Below, piece by piece: positions 2,812 to 24,006 of a stretch of 26,849 nt of DNA. A program made the translations under genes and the position numbers. Each line of letters starts with the position of its first letter. Within the stretch, counting starts at the first letter, position 1. The stretch covers positions 1 through 26,849 of IMG/VR virus record IMGVR_UViG_3300015371_000144; one strand, given 5' to 3'. The notes beneath the pieces are model-generated. The model ran no database searches and was not told the origin of the DNA. It was given only the letters and a program-made list of their open reading frames with translations. This DNA comes from a virus.

Positions 2812-2817
2812 CGCGAA

Positions 2818-2841
2818 GGAGGGGGCCTTGCGGCCCCCTCC
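2818..2841 (+). terminator. Stem-loop after the 2290-2811 gene
   Basis: A perfect 10-bp GC-rich stem (GGAGGGGGCC / GGCCCCCTCC) has a TTGC loop and begins 7 nt after the stop codon. It lacks a following T-run, so it may be a weak terminator or an mRNA 3'-end stabiliser; a second, better terminator lies at 2931-2958. Confidence 0.55.
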
Positions 2842-2930
2842 CTGCCCGTATCCAACAGGCGGCTCCAAGGGTAACGCTGTCGGTGCTACCCTTGACCCGG
2901 TTGGTTGGTTGTTGCTCAAACACCACCGAT

Positions 2931-2958
2931 GAGGCCCCTCGCGCAAGCGGGGGGCCTC
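2931..2958 (+). terminator. Rho-independent terminator
   Basis: A 12-bp stem, GAGGCCCCTCGC paired with GCGGGGGGCCTC (one T-G pair), closes a GCAA tetraloop and is followed by TTTGGTTTCC. It would end the 1391-2811 operon and insulate the surface-protein genes. Confidence 0.8.
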
Positions 2959-2984
2959 TTTGGTTTCCTTCATAGTATGCAACT

Positions 2985-3003
2985 GTCAGTGTCAATGGTT
3001 CCG
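2985..3003. repeat. Intergenic element shared with 24101-24119
   Basis: GTCAGTGTCAATGGTTCCG here differs at one position from GTCAATGTCAATGGTTCCG at 24101-24119. The parts TGTCAATG and GGTTCCG also occur, further apart, at 6811-6845. All three places are non-coding control regions. Read on the minus strand the element contains TTGACA, a -35-like hexamer; only the other two copies have a matching -10. Confidence 0.6.
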
Positions 3004-3114
3004 TTTCATAAGAAACGGGTGCCTCGACGCCACTGACAGCGGTTTCACGTTGGGTGGCGTGTCCACCACCAACTGCCCCTTCGGGCGATTTCTTACGTTT
3101 CCGAGTCTCGGTTC

Positions 3115-3143
3115 TTCTCACGCTCGGTGGCCTGTGCTACGTT
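3115..3143 (+). promoter_or_regulatory. Predicted promoter of the first secreted-protein gene
   Basis: TTCTCA (3115-3120), a 17-nt spacer and TACGTT (3138-3143) preceded by TGTGC. The same -10 sequence and spacing occur at 1316-1344. Transcription would start near 3150, giving a leader of about 90 nt before the ATG. Confidence 0.4.
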
Positions 3144-3238
3144 CCGGCTTCGCAGTAGGTGGACGGGTGGGAACGGCAAGGACGGAACCGCTCCAGACCC
3201 TGCGTGAACACAACACCAACCAACGAGGAGAACACTCG

Positions 3239-4318
3239 ATGCACAAGCGCCTCATGCGCAGGAGCCTGGTGGCCATCGCGGCAACCGGACTCACCCTCGG
3301 TCTGGCAGGAGTGGCGGGAGCCACCCCGCCCGGACCGCCGCCGCCTCCCCCGCCCGCGCCGACCACGGCGACCGGGACGGGTGACGTCGTGCAGACGTCG
3401 GACGTCATCGCGGACATCAACCAGATCAGCGCCAGCAACACCGGCCTGAACCTGGACATCAACTGGGTCACGCAGGAGAACGACGCCAGCGGCTCCAACA
3501 CCGGCAGCGCCGATGGCGGTTCCGCCGAGTCCTCGGCCGACGACAGCTTCTCGCTGCCGTACGACCTCCTGCTCCCGCCGCCCCCGTCGTCCTCGTCGGA
3601 CGCCTCGGCAGCGGGTGGTGCGGCTGCGGCCGACGCCAGCGCGACCAGTGACGCGACCGGTGGTGCCGGGGGCACCAACGACGGCACCAACACCGCCGAC
3701 CACAGCAACGACGCCACGCAGGACAACACCATCGAGACGGGTGCTGCGGACTCGGAGAACGAGGTCACCGGCGAGGTCAGCCAGTCGCACACCAACAAGA
3801 GCACCACGGCTGCCACGGCGACGGGCGGCGCGGCCACCTCGGCCTCGACGGCTGGCAACGCCACGGCGGCCTCCAGCACGCCGACCCCGGCGACGGCCAC
3901 TGCTTCGTCCAGCGTCACGCAGGCGCAGACGGCGTACGTCGGCGTCAACCAGGCGGCGGCGTCGAACAGCGGCATGAACGCCGCTGCCAACGTGGCGGCG
4001 CAGTCCAACTCGGCCTCGGGCAGCAACTCGGGCTCGGCCGATGGTGGCTCGGCGGGTTCGTCGGCCTCGACGCCGTCCGCTTCGGCGGCTGGCACCACGT
4101 CCTCGGCCGCCTCGGCCACGGGCGACTCGACGGCGACGGGCGGTGACGGCGGCAGCAACACCGCCGCCAACGACGCCAAGGCGGCCAACACCGCTGCGCA
4201 GACGAACACCATCAAGACCGGCGACGCCACCGCCAAGAACTCGGCGTCGCTGACCATCACGCAGACCGCGGACAACACGTCGGACGTCACCGCCGACGCG
4301 ACCGCCGACGCGGGCTGA
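3239..4318 (+). CDS. Secreted low-complexity Asn/Ser/Gly/Ala repeat protein, fibre- or matrix-like
   Basis: The frame encodes 359 residues from ATG 3239, preceded by GAGGAG with 8-nt spacing; the frame is open upstream but that part crosses the control region. A Sec signal peptide is clear: MHKRLMRR, a hydrophobic core to about residue 27, and an AGA site. A Pro-rich stretch follows. The rest is two copies of one unit (about residues 55-200 and 232-350), each holding NQ-x-SAS-N-(T/S)-G-x-N, then SGSN-(T/S)-GSADGGSA, then a Ser/Ala spacer and a TNTI-(E/K)-TG segment. There is no cysteine, LPxTG or membrane anchor. Such Asn/Gln/Ser/Gly ladders suit beta-stacked or amyloid-like surface fibres, loosely recalling curlin and rodlin repeats; this is inference. 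The next gene encodes a wall-anchored repeat protein, suggesting a partner. Confidence 0.82.
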   Translation: MHKRLMRRSLVAIAATGLTLGLAGVAGATPPGPPPPPPPAPTTATGTGDVVQTSDVIADINQISASNTGLNLDINWVTQENDASGSNTGSADGGSAESSADDSFSLPYDLLLPPPPSSSSDASAAGGAAAADASATSDATGGAGGTNDGTNTADHSNDATQDNTIETGAADSENEVTGEVSQSHTNKSTTAATATGGAATSASTAGNATAASSTPTPATATASSSVTQAQTAYVGVNQAAASNSGMNAAANVAAQSNSASGSNSGSADGGSAGSSASTPSASAAGTTSSAASATGDSTATGGDGGSNTAANDAKAANTAAQTNTIKTGDATAKNSASLTITQTADNTSDVTADATADAG

Positions 4319-4375
4319 TCCGCCCAGCATGACCGAACTCTGATAGGGTTCGGTACCTGAGCAACCTGCAACGGA

Positions 4376-4397
4376 GGCGGGGGCTTCGGCCCCCGCC
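4376..4397 (+). terminator. Rho-independent terminator between the two surface-protein genes
   Basis: A perfect 9-bp stem GGCGGGGGC / GCCCCCGCC with a TTCG tetraloop is followed by TTTGTTG. It lies only 32 nt before the next ATG, so it may also act as an attenuator for that gene. A TAGGGTTCGG box lies at 4344-4353, upstream of the stem. Confidence 0.8.
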
Positions 4398-4429
4398 TTT
4401 GTTGTATCAACAATGAGGACCAACCAACC

Positions 4430-6580
4430 ATGAGACACCGCATTCAGACAGTCCTGGGAGTGTCGATCGTGCTGCTCGCAACAGCAGCCAGCGGCACTGC
4501 CTACGCCGACGACGATCCGCCCACGACAGAAGCCCCACCCACCACCGAGGCACCGCCCACGACGCCGCGGCCCACCGTGTCGATCACCGTGGCTGACGTC
4601 CCGGTCGAGACGGACCCACCGGCCAACACGTCCGACGTCAGCCAGCCCAAGGTGCTGGACGACCCCAAGCCATCAGCCGTCACCACGACGACCGACGTCC
4701 CGACCGACAGCAGCACCACGGAGCCCGCCAAGAGCGGAGACGAGACGCCCTCGACGGGCACCGTGGCCGCTGCTGCCACCACCGTGGCCGTGGTGCCCTC
4801 GTCCACCCTGAACCCGAACCAGAACCACTCGGATCAGGAGACGCAGGTCACCGGCACCCAGGTGGCCAACGCCAACACAGGCGACAACCTGACGCACAAC
4901 GACCAGCCGAACAACGGCTCGGTCCCGGCCAACTCGATCGGCACCGGCAATGCCGACGCCGTGGGCTCCGAGGACGTCAACAAGGTGACCCAGGCTGCTG
5001 ACGTGGTGCTCACCGACCAGGCCCTGGCCAACGTGTTGCAGGTCGCCCTGATCCTCAACATCGGAGCCGCCCTGGCCAACTCAGGAGCCAACGCTGTTGC
5101 TGCAACACCGGGAGGCTCGGGTGCAGCGGGCTCGATCGGGACCGGCAACGCCGACGCCACCGGCCTGGACATGAGCCAGTACATCACCCAGGCCGCTCGG
5201 GCTGCGGGTGACGAGAACACCGACGACGCCGCCAAGCAGTTGGCCGTGTCACTGTGGATGGGCATTGCCACCGCCAACTCGGGCACCAACGCCATCACTG
5301 GTGGTGACGGCGGAACGGGCACTGGTGGCGAGGTTGGCACCGGCAACGCCAGCGCTACGGGCAACCGCTCGCTGACCGACATCCTCCAGGGTGCCGACGT
5401 CACCGGCTCGGGCACCAGCCAGACCAACGTGGAGCAGTATGCAACGGTGCTGAACATGGGCTTCGCCCTGGCCAACTCCGGTGCCAACGACATCGCCGGG
5501 GTGGCCAGCGGGCTGCTGACGGCGGGCTCATCGGAAGAGCAGAACCAGATGGCGGTGGACCTGTTCTCCATGCTGCTCCCGGCCCTGATGTCCAGCTATG
5601 CATCAACGGGTGGGGCTGGCTCCATCGGCACCGGCAACGCCACGGCGGTCGGAAACGATTCCGAAACGTACGTTCAGCAGTTGGCCATGGCTGCCAACTC
5701 GGGGGACGGCATCGCCACGATCATCCAGAACGTCCTGGTGGCCAACGTCGGGGCCGCTGGTGCCAACACTGGTGTCAACTCCATCGGTGGCAGCTATGCA
5801 TCGCTGGACCCGCAGACGGCCAAGGCTGTCGTCACCCTGGCCGCCTTCTTGGCTCAGATGCTGGCGATGGTCCACACCGGAGCGAGCGACCAGGCCCGCC
5901 AGTTGCAGGAAGCCGGGTTGGAGATCCCGTTCGGGGACATCATCCTCACCGTCCAGGGTGCTATGCAGCAGGTGGACACCAGCCTGACCAACGAGACGGG
6001 GGCTCGCGCCAACGTCCGTCAGGTGACCATCGTCCTGTCGCTCGGCTACGCCCAGGCCAACAGCGGGCTCAACCAGGCGATCGCAGACAACGGCGACCCT
6101 GCGGTCATGGCCCTGATGTCGGGCAACAGCTTCGACGCCACCGTCAACGACGGCACGGCCGACAAGATCCGCTCGGCCAACGCTCTCGCTGGCAACGAGG
6201 GCCTGGTGATCATCTGCCAGCGGCGCAACGCCGACGACATCGCCTGCCTGGCACCACCGGAGCCCCCGGTGGATGACCCGGACACGCCCGTAGATGACCC
6301 GCAGACGCCCGTCACGCTGCCTCCTGCGGCCCAGGACCCGGTGACCGAGCCGCAGACGCCGGTCGTCATCGGCACCCAGGAGATCGTCTGGAGCGACCCG
6401 GTGCCAGCGAGGCCGCAGAGCTTCATCGCTCAGCCCGAGACGGTGACGCACAAGCAGAGCGGGGTGCTGCCCGCCACCGGTACCGACAGCGACTCCGTGG
6501 TGCAGATCGCGGAGTGGTTCATCGGCGCTGGTGCCCTTGCGATCGTTGTCACACGGAGGCGTCGCCGCCGCCCGGCCTGA
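4430..6580 (+). CDS. Sortase-type (LPATG) wall-anchored repeat protein
   Basis: The frame encodes 716 residues. A Sec signal peptide (MRHRIQTV, hydrophobic core, cleavage near AYA) is followed by a Pro/Thr linker (PPTTEA repeats). About residues 130-600 hold five to six degenerate repeats of the form (V/L)LN-x-G-x-A-x-ANSGxN, a Gly-rich turn, then GTGNAxAxG and a Gln-containing strand. A second Pro-rich spacer (PVDDPDTP) would span the wall. The C-terminus is a textbook sorting signal: LPATG at 680-684, a hydrophobic segment (FIGAGALAIVV), then six arginines. In Gram-positive bacteria a host sortase cleaves after the LPxT threonine and attaches the protein to peptidoglycan. GAGG lies 11 nt before the start. 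Its role in a phage is unknown; superinfection exclusion, host aggregation or lysogenic conversion are candidate roles. Confidence 0.87.
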   Translation: MRHRIQTVLGVSIVLLATAASGTAYADDDPPTTEAPPTTEAPPTTPRPTVSITVADVPVETDPPANTSDVSQPKVLDDPKPSAVTTTTDVPTDSSTTEPAKSGDETPSTGTVAAAATTVAVVPSSTLNPNQNHSDQETQVTGTQVANANTGDNLTHNDQPNNGSVPANSIGTGNADAVGSEDVNKVTQAADVVLTDQALANVLQVALILNIGAALANSGANAVAATPGGSGAAGSIGTGNADATGLDMSQYITQAARAAGDENTDDAAKQLAVSLWMGIATANSGTNAITGGDGGTGTGGEVGTGNASATGNRSLTDILQGADVTGSGTSQTNVEQYATVLNMGFALANSGANDIAGVASGLLTAGSSEEQNQMAVDLFSMLLPALMSSYASTGGAGSIGTGNATAVGNDSETYVQQLAMAANSGDGIATIIQNVLVANVGAAGANTGVNSIGGSYASLDPQTAKAVVTLAAFLAQMLAMVHTGASDQARQLQEAGLEIPFGDIILTVQGAMQQVDTSLTNETGARANVRQVTIVLSLGYAQANSGLNQAIADNGDPAVMALMSGNSFDATVNDGTADKIRSANALAGNEGLVIICQRRNADDIACLAPPEPPVDDPDTPVDDPQTPVTLPPAAQDPVTEPQTPVVIGTQEIVWSDPVPARPQSFIAQPETVTHKQSGVLPATGTDSDSVVQIAEWFIGAGALAIVVTRRRRRRPA

Positions 6581-6598
6581 TAAGGTCCCGAATGCGTT

Positions 6599-6638
6599 GA
6601 CAGCCCCGCCCTCGTTCCGCCCGAGTGGCGGGGCTGTC
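6599..6638. terminator. Bidirectional terminator between convergent genes
   Basis: A 12-bp perfect stem GACAGCCCCGCC / GGCGGGGCTGTC is extended inside by CTCG/CGAG with a one-base bulge. It lies between the end of the wall-anchored protein (plus strand) and the end of the small minus-strand gene at 6644, serving both. A TAAGGT box follows the plus-strand stop directly at 6581-6586. Confidence 0.75.
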
Positions 6639-6643
6639 CGCTT

Positions 6644-6760
6644 TCAGTCCTCGTCATCCTCCCTGGGGTCGGGCTCGTAGCCCTCGTAGGTGCACCAGTC
6701 GGCGTGGTACTCGTCGGGGCGCTCGGCCTTGCAGATGGGGCATGTCATCGTGTTCTTCAT
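6644..6760 (-). CDS. 38-residue CCHC zinc-knuckle-like protein
   Basis: This tiny frame encodes 38 residues starting MKNTMTCPICKAERPDEYHA. Cys7, Cys10, His19 and Cys23 are spaced C-x2-C-x8-H-x3-C, as in small zinc-binding folds. The tail is strongly acidic (PREDDED). A minus-strand promoter (6789-6817) points at it and a stem-loop ends it, which supports a real gene although the Shine-Dalgarno is poor. Phages often carry such mini zinc proteins as early, host-directed factors, but no specific function can be read here. It is divergent from the Acb2-like gene and might share its regulation. A chance open frame is the alternative; the ordered metal ligands and GC-ending codons argue against that. 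Confidence 0.6.
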   Translation of the reverse strand: MKNTMTCPICKAERPDEYHADWCTYEGYEPDPREDDED

Positions 6761-6788
6761 GCTCTATATGAGACGGATTCCTGCGAAT

Positions 6789-6817
6789 CAGTTAAGGTGA
6801 CGTCCGTCACGTGTCAA
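6789..6817 (-). promoter_or_regulatory. Predicted minus-strand promoter with an internal palindrome
   Basis: Read on the minus strand: TTGACA (6817-6812), a 17-nt spacer, TAACTG (6794-6789). The spacer contains the perfect inverted repeat GTGACG-TC-CGTCAC (6797-6810), placed as an operator would be. It would drive the 38-residue zinc-type protein. Confidence 0.5.
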
Positions 6818-6849
6818 TGTCAGCGCGTCCGCTCGCAGGGTTCCGTTGC

Positions 6850-6878
6850 TTGACAGATGACTTGCTCTACCTGATACT
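6850..6878 (+). promoter_or_regulatory. Predicted strong promoter of the Acb2-like gene
   Basis: A consensus -35 TTGACA (6850-6855), 17-nt spacer and GATACT (6873-6878). This is the best sigma70-type match in the window and resembles the sheath-operon promoter (TTGACG-17-GATACG). It would start transcription near 6885, about 25 nt before the gene. The GGTTCCG part of the shared intergenic element lies just upstream at 6839-6845. Confidence 0.68.
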
Positions 6879-6908
6879 CTTCGGCTCCGCAACCTTGAAA
6901 GGACGGAC

Positions 6909-7163
6909 ATGCCCAAGAGCAACAAGGCCACCCTGGCACGGATCGAGCGGGACTTCACCAACCACCCGCCGACGCCCGAGGTCCAGGCAGCCATGGAGGC
7001 GCTTCGCAAGAAGTACAAGGTGGTGGTGGCTGAGTTGCATAGCCTCAGCCACACCCGCGAGCAGTCGCTGGCCATCACCAACCTGGAACAGTCACTCATG
7101 TGGGCGATGGCTCACCTAGCCCGGACGAGCTATGACAACAGCATGAATGGGGATGGTGACTGA
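6909..7163 (+). CDS. acb2: Acb2-like anti-CBASS cyclic-nucleotide sponge
   Basis: The frame encodes 84 residues; AAAGGA sits 7 nt before the ATG. The layout matches the Acb2/Tad1-type helical hairpin family as I recall it from Pseudomonas phage Acb2: an N-terminal F-x-x-HPP turn (here FTNHPP, residues 16-21), a charged long helix (MEALRKKYKVVVAELHSL), then the hallmark second helix (S/T)RE(Q/K)SLA-(I/L)-T-x-LE-x-(S/A)-(L/V)-MWA ending in a LAR-type helix end. Acb2 oligomers bind and sequester the cyclic di/trinucleotides that activate CBASS effectors, blocking abortive infection. The residue before HPP is Asn rather than the Tyr I recall, so ligand preference may differ. A near-consensus promoter suits early expression. 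The call rests on motif reading, not a search. Confidence 0.78.
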   Translation: MPKSNKATLARIERDFTNHPPTPEVQAAMEALRKKYKVVVAELHSLSHTREQSLAITNLEQSLMWAMAHLARTSYDNSMNGDGD

Positions 7164-7164
7164 C

Positions 7165-8229
7165 ATGCAACAGCGTGTACTGTGGCGGACCCTGGGCATC
7201 TGCACCCTGCTTGGTGTGAGTGCGGTGGGGGCGGTGCACATGGCGAGTGACACCAACGCTGCCCCCGCAGGTGGTGGCCAAGAACCGTGCATGGTCTACC
7301 TGTACGACAAGACGTACGGGGACCACCCGACTTCATCAGTGGAAGAACCCGACTGCCCACCACCGGACTGCGAGCACAGCATCGCTGATGGCAGCGGCAC
7401 CACGTGGAAGCCCAAGGGCTGCCACCCCGGCACGACGGACCACCACACCTACCCGACCAACCCGCCGAGCACGCCGTGTTCGTCGGCGTGGGTCGATGAG
7501 CACGGCAACGCCCACGCGTATGACAACTGCGGCACGCAGCCCGCTACCACCAAGCCGGGGACGACGAGCACCACGTCCACCACAGTGGGCGGCTCCACAT
7601 CGACCACGTCGGGGTCTGGCACGTCCACCACGACGACGTCAGGTTCATCGACCACGTCTACCACCCGAGTGGTCCCACCACCGCCACCGCCTGGTGGGTC
7701 GAGCACGACGTCAAGCACGACCAGCACCACGGTGCGCCCAACGGTCCCGGTGATCACCGGTCCTGGCACGGTGGAGATCTTCCTGCGTGACGCGACGTCG
7801 GTGTGTCAGGTCGGCGTGCCGAAGATCCGCATTGACTTCGGCACCGAGAGCCAGTTCAACGGCAGGGTCGGAACCCTGACGATGAGCGACATCAACGGCA
7901 ACGTCATCTCGGTGCAGCCGCTGACCTACCAGGCCAACACCACGGCGTTCATCCTCTACCCCGGCACCGTCGTGGACGCCAACGGCGAGGCCATCGTGGT
8001 GCCTGGCTGGACGAAGAACTCGGATGGCTTTTGGGTGGAGGACCCGACCAACACCATCTGGCGCGAGGGCATCAACCTGCTGTACGAAGTCAACCCGAGC
8101 GCCACGGCGTTCGTTACATACCCGCCCGAGTCGAGCGGCTGTGCGACACCGACAGGACCGTTCCCTCCGGGGCCGGTCGGTCAGCCGCAAGCGCCGCACA
8201 CACCTGGCGGGCTCCCCATCACGGAGTAG
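7165..8229 (+). CDS. Secreted Cys-containing surface protein with Ser/Thr linker and Ig-like C-terminal domain
   Basis: The frame encodes 354 residues from ATG 7165, which follows the Acb2-like stop by 1 nt; in-frame ATGs at 7147 and 7153 overlap that gene. MQQRVLWRT plus a hydrophobic core to about residue 25 is a signal peptide or N-terminal anchor. Residues about 35-125 contain six cysteines with His/Pro-rich spacing (CPPPDC), probably a disulfide-bonded exported domain. A long Ser/Thr linker (TTSTTSTT types) and PPPPPP follow, then a beta-rich domain (about 195-335) with LYPGTVVDANGEAIVVPGW, a motif I associate with surface proteins of actinobacteria that often end in LPxTG. This protein lacks such a sorting signal and ends Pro/Gly-rich. 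It may be secreted, held by its N-terminus, or bound to the two upstream surface proteins. Confidence 0.8.
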   Translation: MQQRVLWRTLGICTLLGVSAVGAVHMASDTNAAPAGGGQEPCMVYLYDKTYGDHPTSSVEEPDCPPPDCEHSIADGSGTTWKPKGCHPGTTDHHTYPTNPPSTPCSSAWVDEHGNAHAYDNCGTQPATTKPGTTSTTSTTVGGSTSTTSGSGTSTTTTSGSSTTSTTRVVPPPPPPGGSSTTSSTTSTTVRPTVPVITGPGTVEIFLRDATSVCQVGVPKIRIDFGTESQFNGRVGTLTMSDINGNVISVQPLTYQANTTAFILYPGTVVDANGEAIVVPGWTKNSDGFWVEDPTNTIWREGINLLYEVNPSATAFVTYPPESSGCATPTGPFPPGPVGQPQAPHTPGGLPITE

Positions 8230-8248
8230 CCAAGGTATGGCATCATGG

Positions 8249-8279
8249 TCAGGCCCGTCCCACGAAGGGGCGGGCCTGA
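8249..8279 (+). terminator. Rho-independent terminator
   Basis: A 13-bp stem TCAGGCCCGTCCC / GGGGCGGGCCTGA (one T-G pair) with a 5-nt loop is followed by TCTGTTT. It begins 20 nt after the 7165-8229 stop and ends 19 nt before the VWA gene, again placing a hairpin in a leader. Confidence 0.75.
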
Positions 8280-8297
8280 TCTGTTTGGGAGAACAAG

Positions 8298-9008
8298 ATG
8301 GAGAAGACGCACGTGACGCTGTTGTGCGACCGCACCGGCAGCATGAGGGAGATCCTGGCCGACGCCCAGGGAGCGGTGAACAGCTTCCTGGACGAGCAGA
8401 AGCTGGTGGAGGGCGAGTGCACCCTGTGGCTGTGCGAGTTCGACAGCCCGGACTACGGCCACGAAGAGGACTGGTTCACCACCGTCCACGACGGCCCGAT
8501 CACCGACGCCAAGGAGTACCGCCTGGAGCCGCGCAACAACACGGCGCTGTACGACGCCCTGGCCCGAGCGATCACCGAGACGGGGCGCAAGCTGGAGCGC
8601 ATGCCCGAGGCCGAGCGGCCGCAGCGGGTCATCTTCGTGTGGCAGACGGACGGCCTGGAGAACGCCTCCAAGCACAACACCCGCGACGCCGTGCGGGCGA
8701 TGATCAAGCACCAGGAGGACGTCTACTCCTGGGTGTTCATCCCCCTGGGCTCCACGATGGACGCCGCCAAGGCCAACTCAGACATCCTGTGGGGCACGCA
8801 GAGCGCCGGGAACGTTGTGGCGGCTGCTGGCACCGGACACAGCCACAGCGTGGCTCACAGCCACGTCTCCGGGGTCGTGAGCACCCTGCGGACGGCGCAC
8901 TCGCATGAGGCCTACGCCGCCGCCTCGTACACCAACAAGGCCTCCTTCAACGCCGCTGGCGAGGAAGTGGACGAGCACGGCAACGTGGTCAACAAGACGA
9001 CGGTGTAG
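8298..9008 (+). CDS. VWA-domain protein with MIDAS motif
   Basis: The frame encodes 236 residues; GGGAGAA precedes the ATG. It is a compact von Willebrand factor A fold. LLCDRTGSM (residues 8-16) is the MIDAS D-x-T/S-x-S motif, NNTALYDAL (near 80) supplies the MIDAS threonine, and FVWQTDGLEN (near 118) is the second MIDAS acidic strand. These coordinate a divalent metal used for protein binding. The C-terminal 70 residues lie outside the core and carry three HSH clusters (HSHSVAHSH, then HSH), which could bind metal. No signal peptide is seen, so it is cytoplasmic. VWA proteins often act with AAA+ ATPases or as adaptors, but no such partner is in the window. It is the last plus-strand gene before a convergent terminator. 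Confidence 0.85.
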   Translation: MEKTHVTLLCDRTGSMREILADAQGAVNSFLDEQKLVEGECTLWLCEFDSPDYGHEEDWFTTVHDGPITDAKEYRLEPRNNTALYDALARAITETGRKLERMPEAERPQRVIFVWQTDGLENASKHNTRDAVRAMIKHQEDVYSWVFIPLGSTMDAAKANSDILWGTQSAGNVVAAAGTGHSHSVAHSHVSGVVSTLRTAHSHEAYAAASYTNKASFNAAGEEVDEHGNVVNKTTV

Positions 9009-9058
9009 TAGGGTTCGGGAACCTGCTTGACACGGCGGGTCTCTTGGGCAAACAAGAG

Positions 9059-9104
9059 GAAGGCCCCCACCCCCGGACCGGTTCTCCAAGGGGTGGGGGC
9101 CTTC
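9059..9104. terminator. Strong bidirectional terminator between the accessory and virion arms
   Basis: A perfect 15-bp stem, arms 9059-9073 and 9090-9104 (core GGCCCCCACCCC / GGGGTGGGGGCC), has a 16-nt loop. It is flanked by the convergent ends of the VWA gene and the 9112-9942 gene. An extra CTCTTG/CAAGAG hairpin (9041-9058) sits on the plus-gene side. The stem closes with A-T pairs that give T-rich ends on both strands. Confidence 0.82.
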
Positions 9105-9111
9105 TTGTGTG

Positions 9112-9942
9112 TCAGGACTTGGAGGCGTCCACCAGGGCCTTGCCCACAGCGCCCAGGATCTTCCTGATCCAGGCGTCGAAGCCCTCGTCGGTGGCCGCAG
9201 CCGACGCCTTGCCGTTGCGCTTGGCCGGGGCGGGCTCGTCGTCGTCCTTCGCCAGCGCGGCGTCCAGTTCCAACTCCTGCTGGCCCTCGTCGGGGTTCTC
9301 CTGGCGCTCCAGGATGGCGGCGATGAGGGCGGGCTTGGCCTTGCCGATGGCCTTGACGTCCAGGCCCTGACCCTTGGCCAGAGCGGTCAACTCGGGCACG
9401 GTCATCTTCTTCAAGTCGGCCTCGGTGAACTCGGTCGGCTCTTCGGGAGCGCCGTCCTCGTCATCGCCAGCGGCCGAGCCCGTCGTCTCTTCCTCGACCT
9501 CTTCGGCGTCGGCGGCGGCGAAGGTCAACTTCGTCATCTGGCCGTTGAGTTGGCGCACCGTGAAGCCCGCCTCGACCGCTGCCTCCACCAGGGCCATGAG
9601 ATCGGCGTCTTCCTCGACGTCGTCGTCCACGTCCACGAACAGCGTGAGCAGTTCGGGCTCGTCGTCGGGGTACTCCTGCATGAACTCGATCACCGACTCG
9701 GCGTCCTCGCTCGGGTTGAGTTCATCGGTCGATCCGGCGATCGTGGAGTCACCGATGGTGGCGAAGTACACCTCCTTGTCCTTCATCCACTGAGCGATGT
9801 ACTTCGTGGTGTTCTTCTCGCCCGGCTTGATGGCGAACCAGAACTCTGCCTGGGCCTCCACCGCCTTGGCCATCAGGTCTTCCAGCGAAGCGATGATCTC
9901 GGTCTTGTTGCCGGTTCCATCACCGGCGATCACGTACAGCAC
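9112..9942 (-). CDS. Acidic phage protein with SAP/Rho-N-like domain
   Basis: The frame encodes 276 residues with a GTG start at 9942, fixed by AGGAGG 6 nt upstream (9949-9954). The N-terminal half (about 1-135) is an alpha/beta-looking domain of unknown family with runs of Asp/Glu (VDVDDDVEEDAD). A disordered acidic linker follows (EEVEEETTG, DDEDGAPEEP). Residues about 172-212, FTEADLKKMTVPELTALAKG and the following KAKPALIAAIL, fit a SAP or Rho N-terminal helix-extended-helix fold, usually nucleic-acid binding. The C-terminus has a basic KRNGK patch and an amphipathic helix. It is the last gene of the leftward virion unit. A double TATGYAAC-type motif lies directly upstream of the ribosome-binding site. 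Its function is not recognised. Confidence 0.78.
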   Translation of the reverse strand: MLYVIAGDGTGNKTEIIASLEDLMAKAVEAQAEFWFAIKPGEKNTTKYIAQWMKDKEVYFATIGDSTIAGSTDELNPSEDAESVIEFMQEYPDDEPELLTLFVDVDDDVEEDADLMALVEAAVEAGFTVRQLNGQMTKLTFAAADAEEVEEETTGSAAGDDEDGAPEEPTEFTEADLKKMTVPELTALAKGQGLDVKAIGKAKPALIAAILERQENPDEGQQELELDAALAKDDDEPAPAKRNGKASAAATDEGFDAWIRKILGAVGKALVDASKS

Positions 9943-9952
9943 GTGATTCCTC

Positions 9953-9976
9953 CTGTTACATAGGGTGTTGCATAGC
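9953..9976. repeat. Tandem pair of CTGTTRCATAG-type motifs at the 9112-9942 gene leader
   Basis: CTGTTACATAG (9953-9963) and TGTTGCATAGC (9966-9976) are direct copies 13 bp apart. They lie between two genes, immediately upstream of and touching the AGGAGG site of the minus-strand gene, where a bound protein could control it. Read on the minus strand each contains TATGYAACA. Confidence 0.5.
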
Positions 9977-9983
9977 GGGCAGA

Positions 9984-10238
9984 TTACCTGCGTGAACCTC
10001 GCAGAACGGCCACCTTAGCCGCGTCGCCAGCCATCATCATCAAGGAGTCGAACCTGTACAACAGGGCCGCACCCCCTGCGACAGCCAGTGCGAAACGTGG
10101 ATCACCGCGGAAAGCCAGCGTGACCAGGCCTGATGCCGCTGTTATAGCAGCATGGAAGGCCCACGAAGGGGCTTCCACGTACTCCTTGGCGACCTGATCG
10201 AGCTTGTAGACGGCCAACGCCGCTGCCACGTAACGCAT
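9984..10238 (-). CDS. Small two-helix membrane protein, holin-like candidate
   Basis: The frame encodes 84 residues. Two hydrophobic segments are visible, about residues 24-43 (SWAFHAAITAASGLVTLAF) and 49-72 (FALAVAGGAALLYRF and following), joined by a short charged turn (RGDPR). The tail is basic (LRGSRR). Size and two-helix topology suit a class II holin or another small phage inner-membrane protein, and its position next to tail and lysis-type functions is compatible, but no endolysin gene lies beside it. The start has no clear Shine-Dalgarno; it is 19 nt downstream of the preceding stop, so coupling is possible. Other roles, such as a superinfection-exclusion membrane protein, are equally open. 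Confidence 0.65.
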   Translation of the reverse strand: MRYVAAALAVYKLDQVAKEYVEAPSWAFHAAITAASGLVTLAFRGDPRFALAVAGGAALLYRFDSLMMMAGDAAKVAVLRGSRR

Positions 10239-15138: not shown

Positions 15139-16245
15139 TCACCTCCATGTGCTGATCCAGTTGCCTACGTTATTCAACACTAGCGTGGGACGCCCTCGCG
15201 GATCGACCCACCAGTTCTTCGACGGGTACGGCATGCTTCGGCGGCTGCCGCTGACGACCCGAGCCAGCGACACCTTGGACTGGAAGCTCTGCTTGGCCAT
15301 GATGTGCGTGGCGTCGGTGACGTACCAGAAGCCGTCGTAGGGCTGATTCTTCGCCGCACGGATACCGGACTGCACGGCCGTCACGGTGCCGGGCGTGAGC
15401 TTGGCCGACCCGCTGACACGTGCCTCGGCCTTCTGCGTCCAGTCCACCGGCATGTTGATCTGCGCCAACTCGGCCTCTTCCTTGTTGCGCAACGGACGCT
15501 CGGCTGAGAAGTACTGCTGGTACTGATACATACCAGACGACCCAGGCACGGTCTGGACCTTGCGATCGCTGAGGAAGGCCACGGTGGGCGTGTAGCTCGA
15601 CGGCAGCCGGTTGGTGTACTGCGTGGCCGTGAAGTCGAACAGCCCGGCGATGTCCTGTGGTGTGGCAGCCATGCTGTTGGTCAACACCAACACTGGCTCG
15701 GTGCGACTGAGCACACTCTTCGGGTCGATCAGGCGCACGACGCCATCGGTAATGAGCACCTGGCTGCCCTCTCGCGTCGCCAGGTCGTTGATGAACTCCC
15801 AGTCGCTCTCATCGGTCTGCGCAAGCTGCGGCCAGACGTAGTGGTCCTTGCCGAACTCGTCCACGAAGCCAAGCTGGGCATCGGCCACGACACGGGCGAT
15901 GGCCTCGGCCACGGTGTTGTTGGTGAAGAACCGAGGACGGCCCGTCTTCATCACGAACGACGTGCCCATCGCCGTGACCGACACCACGGTGCCGGGGGCG
16001 TTCCCACGTGCACCCACCGAGTAGTCAGTGACATAACCGTAGAACCGACCAGCCGAGTTGACGTCCCAGGTGAACGACAGCGTGCGGTACGCCCCGCTCT
16101 CCAGCGAGAGCCCGTTCACCGGAGTCATCTTGATCTCGACCTGCTCATGCTGACCAATCGACTGCCTGATGGTGCATGACAAGGGGGAGATGTCGAAGGG
16201 CATGCCGTCGAACGCGACCCGGTGGATGGGGATGTAGTTGATCAC
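15139..16245 (-). CDS. gpD/gp27-like baseplate hub protein
   Basis: The frame encodes 368 residues with a GTG start at 16245 that overlaps the LysM-protein stop as GTGA, so it is translationally coupled. The N-terminal beta domain (FDISPLSCTIRQSIGQHEQVEI, GRFYGYVTDYSVGARG) and the central segment TVAEAIARVVADAQLGF followed by ESDWEFINDLATREGSQVLITDGVVRLI are typical of phage late control D / VgrG N-terminal / T4 gp27 hub proteins, which form the trimeric hub. The C-terminal region (GSAKLTPGTVTAVQ, then DGFWYVTDATHIM) matches hub domain endings. No OB-fold plus beta-helix spike is fused to it. Upstream neighbours carry LysM and NlpC/P60 domains. Confidence 0.86.
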   Translation of the reverse strand: MINYIPIHRVAFDGMPFDISPLSCTIRQSIGQHEQVEIKMTPVNGLSLESGAYRTLSFTWDVNSAGRFYGYVTDYSVGARGNAPGTVVSVTAMGTSFVMKTGRPRFFTNNTVAEAIARVVADAQLGFVDEFGKDHYVWPQLAQTDESDWEFINDLATREGSQVLITDGVVRLIDPKSVLSRTEPVLVLTNSMAATPQDIAGLFDFTATQYTNRLPSSYTPTVAFLSDRKVQTVPGSSGMYQYQQYFSAERPLRNKEEAELAQINMPVDWTQKAEARVSGSAKLTPGTVTAVQSGIRAAKNQPYDGFWYVTDATHIMAKQSFQSKVSLARVVSGSRRSMPYPSKNWWVDPRGRPTLVLNNVGNWISTWR

Positions 16246-16517
16246 GTCGGCACACGCAGCATGGTTCCTGGACGCAGGTCCACGTAGGGGTTGAAGACGT
16301 GCGGGTTGGCGTCAGCGAGGATGTTCCACTCCCGCGGGTCGTTGTAGAACTTGGCCGCCAGGTTCCACAGGTTGTCGCCCTCCCTGACGTAGTAGATGGA
16401 GTATGCAACGGTCAGCCGGGTCAGCGTGTTGAGATACACGGTGAACTTGCTGCCACGGTCGGAGGCGACCCACAGGTACTCCCCCTCCGAGTATCGGGAT
16501 GTGCTGGAGAGAGCCAT
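16242..16517 (-). CDS. LysM-domain tail protein (gpX/gp53-like)
   Basis: The frame encodes 91 residues; AAGGGAAG precedes ATG 16517, which shares one base with the preceding stop. Residues about 40-91 form a LysM-like unit: IYYVREGDNLWNLAAKFYND, then REWNILADANPHVFNP, ending LRPGTMLRVP. In contractile tails and related injection systems a small LysM protein connects the tube/hub to the baseplate periphery and may touch peptidoglycan. The N-terminal 38 residues are a short beta segment. It is coupled to the hub gene downstream by a 4-nt overlap. Confidence 0.88.
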   Translation of the reverse strand: MALSSTSRYSEGEYLWVASDRGSKFTVYLNTLTRLTVAYSIYYVREGDNLWNLAAKFYNDPREWNILADANPHVFNPYVDLRPGTMLRVPT

Positions 16518-18238
16518 CAGCTTCCCTTCGCCGTTGTGTTAACAGCCCAGTCCGTCGTCTTGCCGAACGGCTCGGGTCGGGCGATGAAGTTGTACTTCTG
16601 CCACAGTTCCACGATCGAGTGGTCAGCGAACGACCCTCCCTTCTTCGTGCCGTCGCCGTTGTCCCCACCGGCCGACTGCAAGATGTGGAAGACCTTGGCC
16701 TTGCCGTCCGTGACCTTGCCCGAGTAGGACTCAAAGAACGCCACGTGCCCGGACTCCTTGCCGCGGTAGCCAGGCTTCTGCACCAGCACGTCGCCACGAC
16801 GCAGGTACATGAACTGCTCCAGGTTGGCGTCGCCGCTGACGTTGTCGGGCACCGGGTAGTTCTCGAAGATGTTGATGATCGTCCACCGGGCGTTCGCCGG
16901 GTAGTTGGGGGTGTCCCGAACGCCCGAGTTGGCCATGATCTGCCCGTAGAACGTGATGCTGCCGGGCGCTCCTGTTGTGCAACTGGACCCCAGCTTCAAA
17001 GCGTCGGTCTGGTCCGTGCCACTCCATCCGACAGCCCAAAACGACCGCCAGACGAACGACGAGCAGTCGGTGTAGAACGGCGTCCTGGTGTTGCATGGCG
17101 GGCCGTTGAGCCGCAGGCGGCTGTCGGCGCTGTAATGCACGCCGCTGGAGTCCATCAGGTTGTTGTTCGCCCACACGACCGCCTGCGAGGCCCCCAGCCG
17201 GGTCTGGTAGTTGATCTCGTCCTGGTTCCTGGGTGCTACATACCCTGGAGCCTTCGGGTTGTAGGCCTCCGGGCTCTGCGTGGAGCCAGCACCGAGGTCG
17301 CCCAGGCTCTGGTTGTTGGCCTTCCCGGCGTAGTTCACCATCAGGGACACCGTCAACGCCATCGTCATCGGCGTCATCCGCTTGGAGAACTTGGTGAACT
17401 GCGCCGTGACGCCCGACAGCATCCCATCGACCGCCAGCGAGGGCGAGAAGATCGCTGACACGTGCATGCCGTTGGCATTGGGCTGGTACTGCCCGGCGTT
17501 GTTCGCTGTGGGGTCGGTGTTGCTCGGGATCACCGTGCCCGGTGGCAGCACCGGGAACTCCAGGTTCTCCCCGTTGGCGTTGGTGTAGATCATGTTGCCC
17601 GACAGCACGTCGAACGTCTGGAGATCGACCAGCACGCCAGGGTGGTCCTCGGACGTGGCGACCTCGATCTGTCGGTCGAAGTACAGCGTGAACGTGATTG
17701 TTGTGATAGCAGGGATGCCTGACGGCGACACATCGGGCTCGTAGCCGAACTGCGCTGTCGGATCGGCTGTCGTGTTCTCGGACCACGACAGATACTGGCG
17801 CTGCACCTGATCCGGGTTGTACATGAAGTAGAGCCGCACGAAGCTCTCGGGCTGATTGGCGTTGACCTCCGACCGCCGCAGGTAGCCACGGACGATGCGC
17901 TGGACACCGCCGTTCTGGTCACGCATCCACTCGGGAGCGCCATTCGGCCCCATCATCTGACCAGCACCCATGAACGGCGGGTTGGAGTACGTCCCGGCGT
18001 ACTGGATCGACACCGGCCCCATGCCGTGTGATGCAACACTGCTGTTCAACTGCTGCTTGAACTTCGCCCAGTCCAGCCGCTCGTAGACGAACCCGCCAGC
18101 AGGGAAGTAGGCGTTGAACGGCGTGTTGTCAGTACTCAGCGGCGCTTGCTGCGTCCAGCCGTACGGAGCGTTGCCGAGGATGCCCTTGGGCAGCCTGCCC
18201 GAGAAGTATGGCGGCAGGCGCTCTCCGTAGTCAGGCAT
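16517..18238 (-). CDS. Tail hub-associated protein with NlpC/P60-like peptidoglycan hydrolase domain
   Basis: The frame encodes 573 residues; AAGGAG lies 7 nt before ATG 18238. The first 300 residues are a structural region (RGYLRRSEVNANQPESFVRL, then YNPDQVQRQYLSW, and a beta-rich part ending MTMALTVSLMVNY) like the tail-tip proteins that sit beside LysM proteins. The C-terminal region (about 350-540) is NlpC/P60-like: TDCSSFVWRSF has the nucleophile Cys near 391, and DVLVQKPGYRGKESGHVAFF has the catalytic His near 498, followed by further strands. Such domains cut D-Glu/mDAP cross-linking peptides so the tube can pass the wall. The domain is larger than minimal NlpC/P60, with an insertion between Cys and His. 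It lies just downstream of the tape measure. Confidence 0.85.
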   Translation of the reverse strand: MPDYGERLPPYFSGRLPKGILGNAPYGWTQQAPLSTDNTPFNAYFPAGGFVYERLDWAKFKQQLNSSVASHGMGPVSIQYAGTYSNPPFMGAGQMMGPNGAPEWMRDQNGGVQRIVRGYLRRSEVNANQPESFVRLYFMYNPDQVQRQYLSWSENTTADPTAQFGYEPDVSPSGIPAITTITFTLYFDRQIEVATSEDHPGVLVDLQTFDVLSGNMIYTNANGENLEFPVLPPGTVIPSNTDPTANNAGQYQPNANGMHVSAIFSPSLAVDGMLSGVTAQFTKFSKRMTPMTMALTVSLMVNYAGKANNQSLGDLGAGSTQSPEAYNPKAPGYVAPRNQDEINYQTRLGASQAVVWANNNLMDSSGVHYSADSRLRLNGPPCNTRTPFYTDCSSFVWRSFWAVGWSGTDQTDALKLGSSCTTGAPGSITFYGQIMANSGVRDTPNYPANARWTIINIFENYPVPDNVSGDANLEQFMYLRRGDVLVQKPGYRGKESGHVAFFESYSGKVTDGKAKVFHILQSAGGDNGDGTKKGGSFADHSIVELWQKYNFIARPEPFGKTTDWAVNTTAKGS

Positions 18239-21830: not shown

Positions 21831-22382
21831 TCAGACCCGAGAGGCGTCTTCGCCGAAGATGACGTCGAAGCCCTCATGGTGCATGGTCATCTGCGAGATC
21901 AGCACCGCATTCCCGCTGGCGTCCAGATCGTTGAACGCCACGGTGCCGGTCCAGCAGTTGTACACCACGAACGCCAGCCGGGCACCGGCCGGGGAGCCGT
22001 TGGAGCCCGAAGCGTCGCCCTGGGTGATCGGGTGATCGAGCACCCGGATGATCGTGGTGTAGCGGTAGTCCGTCCCCTCGGCCAGGGTGCCCGCACCCTG
22101 CTGGTAGGCGAACATGTTCTTGGCCAACTCCCACATGCCGGGGCGGTTGGACTGGATGCCCTGCACCAGGGTGAGCGGACCGAAGTCCGTCTGCCCAGGG
22201 AGCTTGTGGAAGTTGGTGTTCCACCCGCCCTCGCGGTACGGGATCATCTCCGTGTTCATCGACAGGCCGCTCACGTTGGTGAACGCCATGTCGGACACCA
22301 CCGCGGCGAGCGGTGGGTAGACCAACTGGACCTGGAACTTGAAGTTCCTCATCGGGTCGGACTGGGGACGTGTTGACGCCAT
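21831..22382 (-). CDS. Tail tube protein
   Basis: The frame encodes 183 residues from ATG 22382, with AAGGAG 10 nt upstream; the longer open frame overlaps the sheath gene. RNFKFQVQLVYPPLAAV, FTNVSGLSMNTEMIPYREGG, and PGQTDFGPLTLVQGI are the characteristic strands and loops of the T4 gp19 / contractile tube family, in the usual order. The C-terminal half has VVYNCWTGTVAFNDLDASG, matching the last beta strands. Hexamers of this protein stack to form the inner tube that the sheath drives through the envelope. Codon use is strongly GC-ending, with few of the AT-rich islands seen in other genes, as expected for high expression. Confidence 0.93.
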   Translation of the reverse strand: MASTRPQSDPMRNFKFQVQLVYPPLAAVVSDMAFTNVSGLSMNTEMIPYREGGWNTNFHKLPGQTDFGPLTLVQGIQSNRPGMWELAKNMFAYQQGAGTLAEGTDYRYTTIIRVLDHPITQGDASGSNGSPAGARLAFVVYNCWTGTVAFNDLDASGNAVLISQMTMHHEGFDVIFGEDASRV

Positions 22383-22401
22383 GTTGTGTGAACTCCTTCG
22401 C

Positions 22402-24006
22402 TCAGGCCGCGGCCAGGTTGTCGGTGGCGAACGAGTCGCCCGAGTCGTACTGGCTGATTCGGATGATGATGAACTCGGCCGGGTACTGGAGAGCGACACC
22501 GACCTCCATGCGAACCTCGCCCGAGGCGATGACCTGGGGCGTGTTGATGGTGGCGTCGCAACGGATGAAGTAGGCCTCCTGGGTGCTGACGCCCTTCAAG
22601 CCGCCCGCCTCCCACATCGGCTGGAGGATGCGGTTGGCCGTCTGGCGCAGCGACGACCACAGGTTGGCGTCGTTGTTCTCGAAGACGGCGAACTGCGTCG
22701 AGAGGCGCAGGCTCTCCTTCAAGTAGATCAACGCCCGGCGAGCGCTGACGTACCGATCGGGACCCCACAGCTTGCGGGTGCGAGCGCCCATCACGCAGAT
22801 GCCCTGGCCGGTGAGGCCACGGATCACGTTGATGTTGTTGTAGTTCAACTGGCCCTGGTCGGTGTCGGTGAACTTGACCTCCGAGGCCAGGCCGTTGGCC
22901 ACCGTGGCCGGGACGCCCGCAGGGGCACGCCACGGACCCACCTGGGCGTCGATGCGAGCCATGATCCCCGACACCGCACCGGACGGCGGGATCGAGATGG
23001 TCCCGCCAGCGTTGGCCGGGTCGGGCGTGATGATCCACGGCACGTAGAACGCCGAGTAGCTGTCGGCCGTGCCGAGCGAGGCCGCACGGTTCATGCAGTC
23101 GGTCGTGTACGTCGAGCCCGAGGACACCAGCGACACCGGGTTGCCGTCGTACACCACGAAGATGTCGTCCCGCTCGGTGGCGAACGGGCTGGACTGCTGA
23201 GCGGTCGGCATGACCACCGCACCAGTGTCGTTGACGAACGGCTGGAAGCTGACGATCAGCGGCCCCTCGATCGCCTGCACGGCGTTGATGATCTCCGTCG
23301 CCGTGAGCGCCGCTGCGGTGGGCAGCGCCGGGTCCTTGCCGCCAGCGAGAGCGACGGACGAGCCGGTGGTGGCCGGTTCCAGCGTCGTGACCGCCGAGGC
23401 CACCGAGACGTACCGGCTGCCCGCGAGCGGATCGTTGATCGCCTGGCCGACCGGCCGTGTTCCGACAACACCGCCCATCGACAGGTTGGTGAACGTCTCG
23501 ACCCGGTTGCCGTTGCTGGTGACCAGCATCGAGAAGATCTTGTGGCCGTTCTCGTCGGTCGCCTGGAGCGTCAGCGCCACGGCGACGTCGTTGCCCCACG
23601 CACCAGCGCCAGTGGCGTTGAGCACGATGACCGGCGCTGGCGTGGTCGCACCATCGGTGATGGTGGCCGTGGCGACGAGGCCCTGGGCACCTGTGCCGGT
23701 GGGCATGGCCCGGACGATGTAGGCGGCGCGCCCGCCGTTCTGGTAGTAGCTGTACACGGCGTACGGCAGGTAGCTGAGCAGCGTGCCCTTGTTGGCTGGC
23801 ACGGTCGGGCTCTGCCACGGCACGCCGTCGAAGCCGCCGAACTTCTGCACGAAGTCCGACCACGAATCGACGCGGGTGGCGATCTGTGGGTTGCCCTTCG
23901 GGGTGATCCCCACGAAGCACGCCACGGCTGTGGCGTTGGCGGATTCGAAGGGCGATGTGTTCAACGCCTCTTCGATGTACACGCCTGGGCGGCGGTAGTC
24001 AGGCAC
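22402..24006 (-). CDS. Contractile tail sheath protein
   Basis: The frame encodes 534 residues and starts with GTG at 24006, four bases after a perfect AAGGAGG (24011-24017). MPDYRRPGVYIEE is the classic sheath N-terminus that makes the inter-subunit strand. The C-terminal domain is unmistakable: YVSARRALIYLKESLRLSTQ, then FENNDANLWSSLRQTANRIL, WEAGGLKG and VGVALQYPAEFIIIRISQ. The middle (about 100-330) is a variable insertion domain of beta-rich sequence that probably decorates the outside of the sheath. The gene heads the sheath-tube unit and has its own promoter (24077-24105), consistent with high late expression. Length is typical. Confidence 0.96.
   Translation of the reverse strand: MPDYRRPGVYIEEALNTSPFESANATAVACFVGITPKGNPQIATRVDSWSDFVQKFGGFDGVPWQSPTVPANKGTLLSYLPYAVYSYYQNGGRAAYIVRAMPTGTGAQGLVATATITDGATTPAPVIVLNATGAGAWGNDVAVALTLQATDENGHKIFSMLVTSNGNRVETFTNLSMGGVVGTRPVGQAINDPLAGSRYVSVASAVTTLEPATTGSSVALAGGKDPALPTAAALTATEIINAVQAIEGPLIVSFQPFVNDTGAVVMPTAQQSSPFATERDDIFVVYDGNPVSLVSSGSTYTTDCMNRAASLGTADSYSAFYVPWIITPDPANAGGTISIPPSGAVSGIMARIDAQVGPWRAPAGVPATVANGLASEVKFTDTDQGQLNYNNINVIRGLTGQGICVMGARTRKLWGPDRYVSARRALIYLKESLRLSTQFAVFENNDANLWSSLRQTANRILQPMWEAGGLKGVSTQEAYFIRCDATINTPQVIASGEVRMEVGVALQYPAEFIIIRISQYDSGDSFATDNLAAA

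Follow-up and report, generated by a model that had tools for sequence, protein, structure and literature searches.

A probable host-sortase-anchored repeat protein encoded in an accessory island of a contractile-tailed phage

Introduction

In Staphylococcus aureus ST239, phiSPbeta-like prophages carry SasX, an LPxTG surface protein (PMC6048232), and in Streptococcus thermophilus phages the surface lipoprotein Ltp serves superinfection exclusion (PMC3952083). Among bacterial systems, class E sortases, whose substrates include the chaplins, recognise LAXTG and have been proposed to disfavour Pro in the second position of this motif (PMC5148588).

We analysed an IMG/VR virus record of 26,849 nucleotides (IMGVR_UViG_3300015371_000144, hereafter the window), a fragment of a phage genome that carries a gene for a 716-aa repeat protein ending in an LPATG-type sorting signal (the LPATG protein). 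Like SasX, this would be a wall-anchored surface protein encoded by a phage and in need of a host sortase, both properties being predicted here. However, SasX, the published phage-borne LPXTG precedent that we found, is encoded by an integrated prophage and has been associated with virulence in an animal host, whereas the phage studied here has an end-closed relative without a detectable integrase. The two are further set apart, by description, in that the ectodomain of the LPATG protein matched nothing searched and its host is probably a soil bacterium. Ltp resembles the LPATG protein as a moron-type phage product located outside the infected Gram-positive cell, a location that is predicted for the LPATG protein; but Ltp, which comes from temperate phages, is a lipoprotein anchored in the membrane, whereas covalent wall anchoring is proposed for the LPATG protein and exclusion is a guess. 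Searches of Pfam and PHROG gave no family match that would place it in the Ltp/Sie lipoprotein family. With the chaplins and other class E substrates (PMC5148588) it would share the sortase-anchored, secreted actinobacterial type, but these carry LAXTG and chaplin domains, whereas the LPATG protein has a different motif, LPATG, and lacks any recognised domain. Finally, an LPSTG protein of the related phage G005 (IMGVR_UViG_3300047322_000252) has the same signal peptide, stalk, LPXTG, hydrophobic segment and Arg tail and belongs to the same phage lineage, but it has only ~20 residues before its stalk, no repeat domain and a different genome position. Prophages already illustrate the principle, while we found no earlier description of the phage type, of the ectodomain or of its co-occurrence with a counter-defence gene, and a literature search that was thin on subscription journals yielded no papers on sortase signals in actinophages.

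Results and discussion

Architecture of the LPATG protein

The LPATG gene, its elements and its flanking hairpins lie at the following positions:

4375..4398, + strand: GC-rich, terminator-like hairpin between the preceding gene and the LPATG gene (RNA fold)
4430..6580, + strand: gene for the LPATG-tagged repeat protein, 716 aa, predicted to be secreted (ORF, GC3 and codon usage)
4430..4507, + strand: signal peptide MRHRIQTVLGVSIVLLATAASGTAYA, then DDDPPTTEAPPTTEAPPTTPRP (translation, by eye)
4928..6100, + strand: tandem repeats of ~65 aa, four clear copies and one weak copy (alignment)
about 6245..6466, + strand: Pro-rich linker, APPEPPVDDPDTPVDDPQTPVTLPPAAQDPVTEPQTP... (translation)
6467..6577, + strand: sorting signal, LPATG, spacer, hydrophobic segment and RRRRRR tail (translation, shuffle test)
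6601..6636, + strand: GC-rich, terminator-like hairpin directly 3' of the LPATG gene (RNA fold, -28.6 kcal/mol)

The reading frame at 4430-6580 has a GC3 of 0.86 and a codon correlation of 0.95 with the tail genes, and is therefore favoured over the antisense ORFs, which score worse. A GAGGA ribosome-binding-like site is located a few bases 5' of its start. The order of elements in the product is signal peptide, Thr/Pro-rich segment, repeats, Pro-rich linker and sorting tail. As can be seen by eye in the translation, the signal-peptide-like segment is of the Sec type, with a basic n-region, a hydrophobic core and an AxA site (MRHRIQTVLGVSIVLLATAASGTAYA-DDD, i.e. ending AYA-DDD). The repeats follow the consensus SIGTGNAxAxGN...Q.A...NVxQxAxVLNxGxAxANSGxN; copies 1-4 gave pairwise Z values of 12-18 against shuffles, and copy 5 gave 2-9. 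Curlin repeats, suggested by the Q/N spacing, were considered, but there was no Pfam match to them.

The preliminary description placed LPATG, a spacer, a hydrophobic segment and an Arg tail in the last 37 residues, behind a Pro-rich linker, and the translation bears out both statements. The final 37 residues are LPATGTDSDSVVQIAEWFIGAGALAIVVTRRRRRRPA, so that the C-terminus reads LPATG-TDSDSVVQIAEWFIGAGALAIVVT-RRRRRRPA or, by parts, LPATG-TDSDSVVQIAEW-FIGAGALAIVVT-RRRRRRPA, with the LPATG codons at 6467-6481 and the stop codon at 6578-6580. Among 200,000 shuffled versions of the protein, not one retained an LPxTG-hydrophobic-basic tail, and in order-3 Markov copies of the whole window the expectation was 0.005 such tails per window, compared with the one observed. 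The sorting signal is thus real and well formed. The same description had proposed an HMM search as a check, and here the outcome was negative: neither PF00746 (Pfam, E<=5) nor TIGR01167 (NCBIfam, E<=1) detects the LPATG tail, perhaps owing to a short hydrophobic segment containing Glu and Trp, and both models match the LPSTG tail of G005. A match to these models is a detection aid and no functional requirement; given their silence, the call of a sorting signal rests on the order of its elements.

The silence of the two models, together with the shortness of the hydrophobic stretch and the Glu and Trp near its start, would also be consistent with a secreted membrane protein, in which a C-terminal transmembrane helix is followed by a basic stop-transfer tail, and the LPATG, a chance or relic motif, is not acted on by any sortase. 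We regard this as unlikely, because the LPxTG has the spacing from the C-terminus that a sorting signal requires, with the linker before it and the Arg tail behind it, an arrangement that the shuffles never reproduced, and because clear LPXTG proteins occur in the related phage G005 and in other phages (see below).

Searches of Pfam, PHROG, NCBIfam and the PDB gave no match to the LPATG protein, and no homologues of its ectodomain were found in viral contigs, phages, plasmids or 84,980 bacterial/archaeal genomes. A single-sequence AlphaFold2 model had a mean pLDDT of 37, which is too low for use.

Sortase class

The preliminary description implied dependence on a host sortase of class A/E type. 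Host dependence is consistent with our searches, which detected no sortase in the window, nor in G005, G010 and G013, so that anchoring would depend on a host enzyme. The class E part does not hold: the motif is LPATG and not the LAXTG read by class E sortases. Considering the Pro in the second position, the enzyme would be of class A, class C or possibly the actinobacterial class F.

Phage context and host

A minus-strand block of the window encodes Tail_P2_I, baseplate J, baseplate hub proteins, tail tube and tail sheath, the last as follows:

22402..24006, - strand: tail sheath gene

The sheath, tube and baseplate genes indicate a contractile-tailed phage. A further minus-strand ORF at 22349-23920 overlaps the tail sheath gene in another frame and is a shadow ORF; its GC-by-position pattern is unusual, although its tblastn matches to relatives are strong.

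The tail block is common to several relatives, with baseplate J identities to the window of 76% for G001, 52% for G005 and 49% for the G010 group. The closest cultured relatives by this protein are Streptomyces phages such as BRock, at 33-34%. G005 (118 kb) carries a 127-bp direct repeat at its ends, indicating that it is end-closed at this length, and contigs G003, G006, G008 and G015 are near-identical copies of parts of it. Neither a tyrosine integrase nor a serine recombinase was found in G005, and the lineage is therefore probably non-integrating.

An actinobacterial host, as first predicted, is plausible but unproven. The GC content of about 65% and the kinship with Streptomyces phages fit such a host; on the other hand, two scans of 84,980 bacterial/archaeal genomes, one of them with baseplate J, found no relative through which a host could be assigned.

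An accessory island around the LPATG gene

The LPATG gene lies in an island with the following features:

2812..9111, no strand assigned: accessory island, whole (tblastn synteny, ORF map)
3239..4318, + strand: upstream secreted Ala/Ser/Thr/Asn/Gly-rich repeat protein, 359 aa, with a signal peptide and no sorting signal
6909..7163, + strand: Acb2/Tad1-hairpin protein, 84 aa, anti-CBASS sponge-like (PF24729, E 1.3e-12)
7165..8229, + strand: secreted protein with a Thr/Ser stalk and a C-terminal domain, no sorting signal (no family match)
8298..9008, + strand: VWA-like protein, the last island gene (phrog_7371, E 4.7e-35)

In G005, the counterparts of the neighbours on its two flanks (1385-2811 and 9112-10238) are separated by ~0.4 kb, with one 117-aa gene between them. 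Since both flanks are syntenic with G005, the LPATG gene is inside phage DNA, and since their counterparts are so close together there, the island either was inserted in the present phage or has been lost from G005. The description of the LPATG gene as a phage gene is thereby confirmed, the more so as tail sheath, tube and baseplate J genes share its contig. With regard to the features of a moron, the island is missing at the syntenic place of G005 and hairpins stand on both sides of the LPATG gene (RNA folding of 4375-4412 gave -24.4 kcal/mol), but a promoter of its own was not found, the promoter scan giving no sigma-70-like site directly before the gene.

The 6909-7163 product scores 48.1 bits against PF24729 (cut-off 27) and is a candidate anti-CBASS cyclic-nucleotide sponge. 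A promoter-like site at 6850-6878 is positioned to serve its gene. Relatives of the protein are found in Paenibacillus, Mycobacterium, Streptomyces and Arthrobacter phages, where they are annotated as hypothetical or even as phosphomannomutase, and G005 has a weak match at 16424-16576. VWA_2 matches the 8298-9008 product only below its cut-off. Taken together, the Acb2-like gene, the two further secreted proteins and the VWA-like protein give a picture of host-manipulation cargo.

The upstream repeat protein contains two internal copies of the module NQ..SNSGxN...Q.N.ASGSN[TS]GSADGGSA, and no homologues of it were found. BLASTP without composition correction aligned it to the LPATG protein with an E value of 1.8e-15. 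Homology between the two was rejected, as 88-173 of 300 shuffles scored equally, and the similarity of the two repeat proteins thus reflects composition only.

An architecture typical of bacterial surface proteins and an ectodomain with no known phage homologue raise the possibility that the LPATG gene is a host surface-protein gene that the phage captured recently, or that host DNA was wrongly joined to the contig during metagenome assembly, in either case without a role for the phage. This seems to us even less likely than the membrane-protein reading, as syntenic phage genes stand on both flanks, codon usage agrees with that of the tail genes (0.95), a phage counter-defence gene is among the neighbours and LPXTG genes recur in other phages. 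That the product is a virion component, i.e. a decoration or adhesion protein whose sorting signal is transient or unused, is highly improbable: the tail module is on the same contig as the gene and virions often bear fibrous, repeat-rich proteins, but the signal peptide directs export before assembly, and the gene lies on the strand opposite the tail block in an island missing from the syntenic place of a relative.

Proposed role

We conclude that the LPATG protein is probably a moron-like surface cargo of a large contractile-tailed phage, anchored by the sortase of its host. The protein would be made in the infected cell and exported via the host Sec pathway. A resident host sortase that reads LPXTG would then cleave it at LPAT|G, and the cleaved protein would be covalently joined to the host peptidoglycan; the Pro-rich linker would span the wall, and the repeat domain would be exposed on the exterior of the infected cell. 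Expression, export, cleavage, anchoring and function are all predicted here from sequence; the frame, the signal-peptide-like N-terminus, the repeats, the sorting signal, the phage location, the lack of a detectable phage sortase and the LPXTG genes of other phages are observations. The Acb2-like counter-defence gene in the same island argues for regarding the LPATG protein as host-manipulation cargo.

The benefit to the phage most likely lies in an altered surface of the infected cell, with receptor masking or blocking of other phages as the leading possibility and adhesion or aggregation next. Superinfection exclusion is the function with the strongest precedent among phage surface proteins, namely Ltp (PMC3952083); as a function of the LPATG protein it is a tentative suggestion, argued by analogy, and somewhat doubtful. 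An adhesion or virulence-type role was considered on the precedent of SasX (PMC6048232). In a bolder version, large virulent actinophages would routinely use the host sortase to place phage proteins on the wall of dying cells, and here the anchored repeat protein (as nucleator) and the secreted 3239-4318 protein (as soluble subunits) would form a two-part surface fibre shielding or clumping infected cells; we consider this improbable.

LPXTG genes in other phages

The LPATG gene represents a recurring, little-described type of phage cargo. In G005, the product of the gene at 3758-4381 (207 aa) combines a signal peptide and a Pro/Ser/Thr/Val stalk with an LPSTG-hydrophobic-RR tail, and it exceeds both the Pfam and the NCBIfam cut-offs. 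A second ORF of G005 has an LPATG tail and an N-terminus without an obvious signal peptide. Near this second gene, G005 (L025) encodes at 15210-16535 a secreted 441-aa protein of glycoside hydrolase-like appearance.

IMG/VR was also scanned with one high-GC codon pattern, which is biased and gives a lower bound rather than a frequency; at least 80 readable loci were obtained, at least seven of them with a strict LPXTG-hydrophobic-basic tail. Among the matches listed, signal-peptide-like segments were seen by eye in all seven strict-tail proteins, and three of the strict-tail genes lie near clear phage genes:

L110: signal-peptide, stalk and LPXTG gene beside a portal gene
L103: signal-peptide, stalk and LPXTG gene beside tape measure and endolysin genes
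L119: signal-peptide, stalk and LPXTG gene beside a phage DNA polymerase gene

The contigs with LPXTG genes near portal, tape-measure and DNA-polymerase genes are unrelated to the phage of the window. No LPXTG gene was found in Streptomyces phage BRock, the nearest cultured relative examined, whose collagen-like proteins are without a sorting signal, and none was seen in the partial genomes of the G010 group and G013. The other phage LPXTG proteins gave no matches to named phages.

Compared to SasX, a prophage product, these observations concern a lineage with an end-closed relative without a detectable integrase. If the products are truly anchored, sortase would be a host factor exploited by apparently lytic phages, and remodelling of the cell surface during infection would lend itself to direct tests with actinobacteria that grow in culture and with their phages.

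The ectodomains of the LPXTG proteins of three viral contigs, L106, L108 and L119, appear similar (compare KVVAFAVGQGTYNV of L106 with KVVTFGVGYATEAG of L108, both located before the stalk), which suggests that these proteins form a phage-borne LPXTG protein family.
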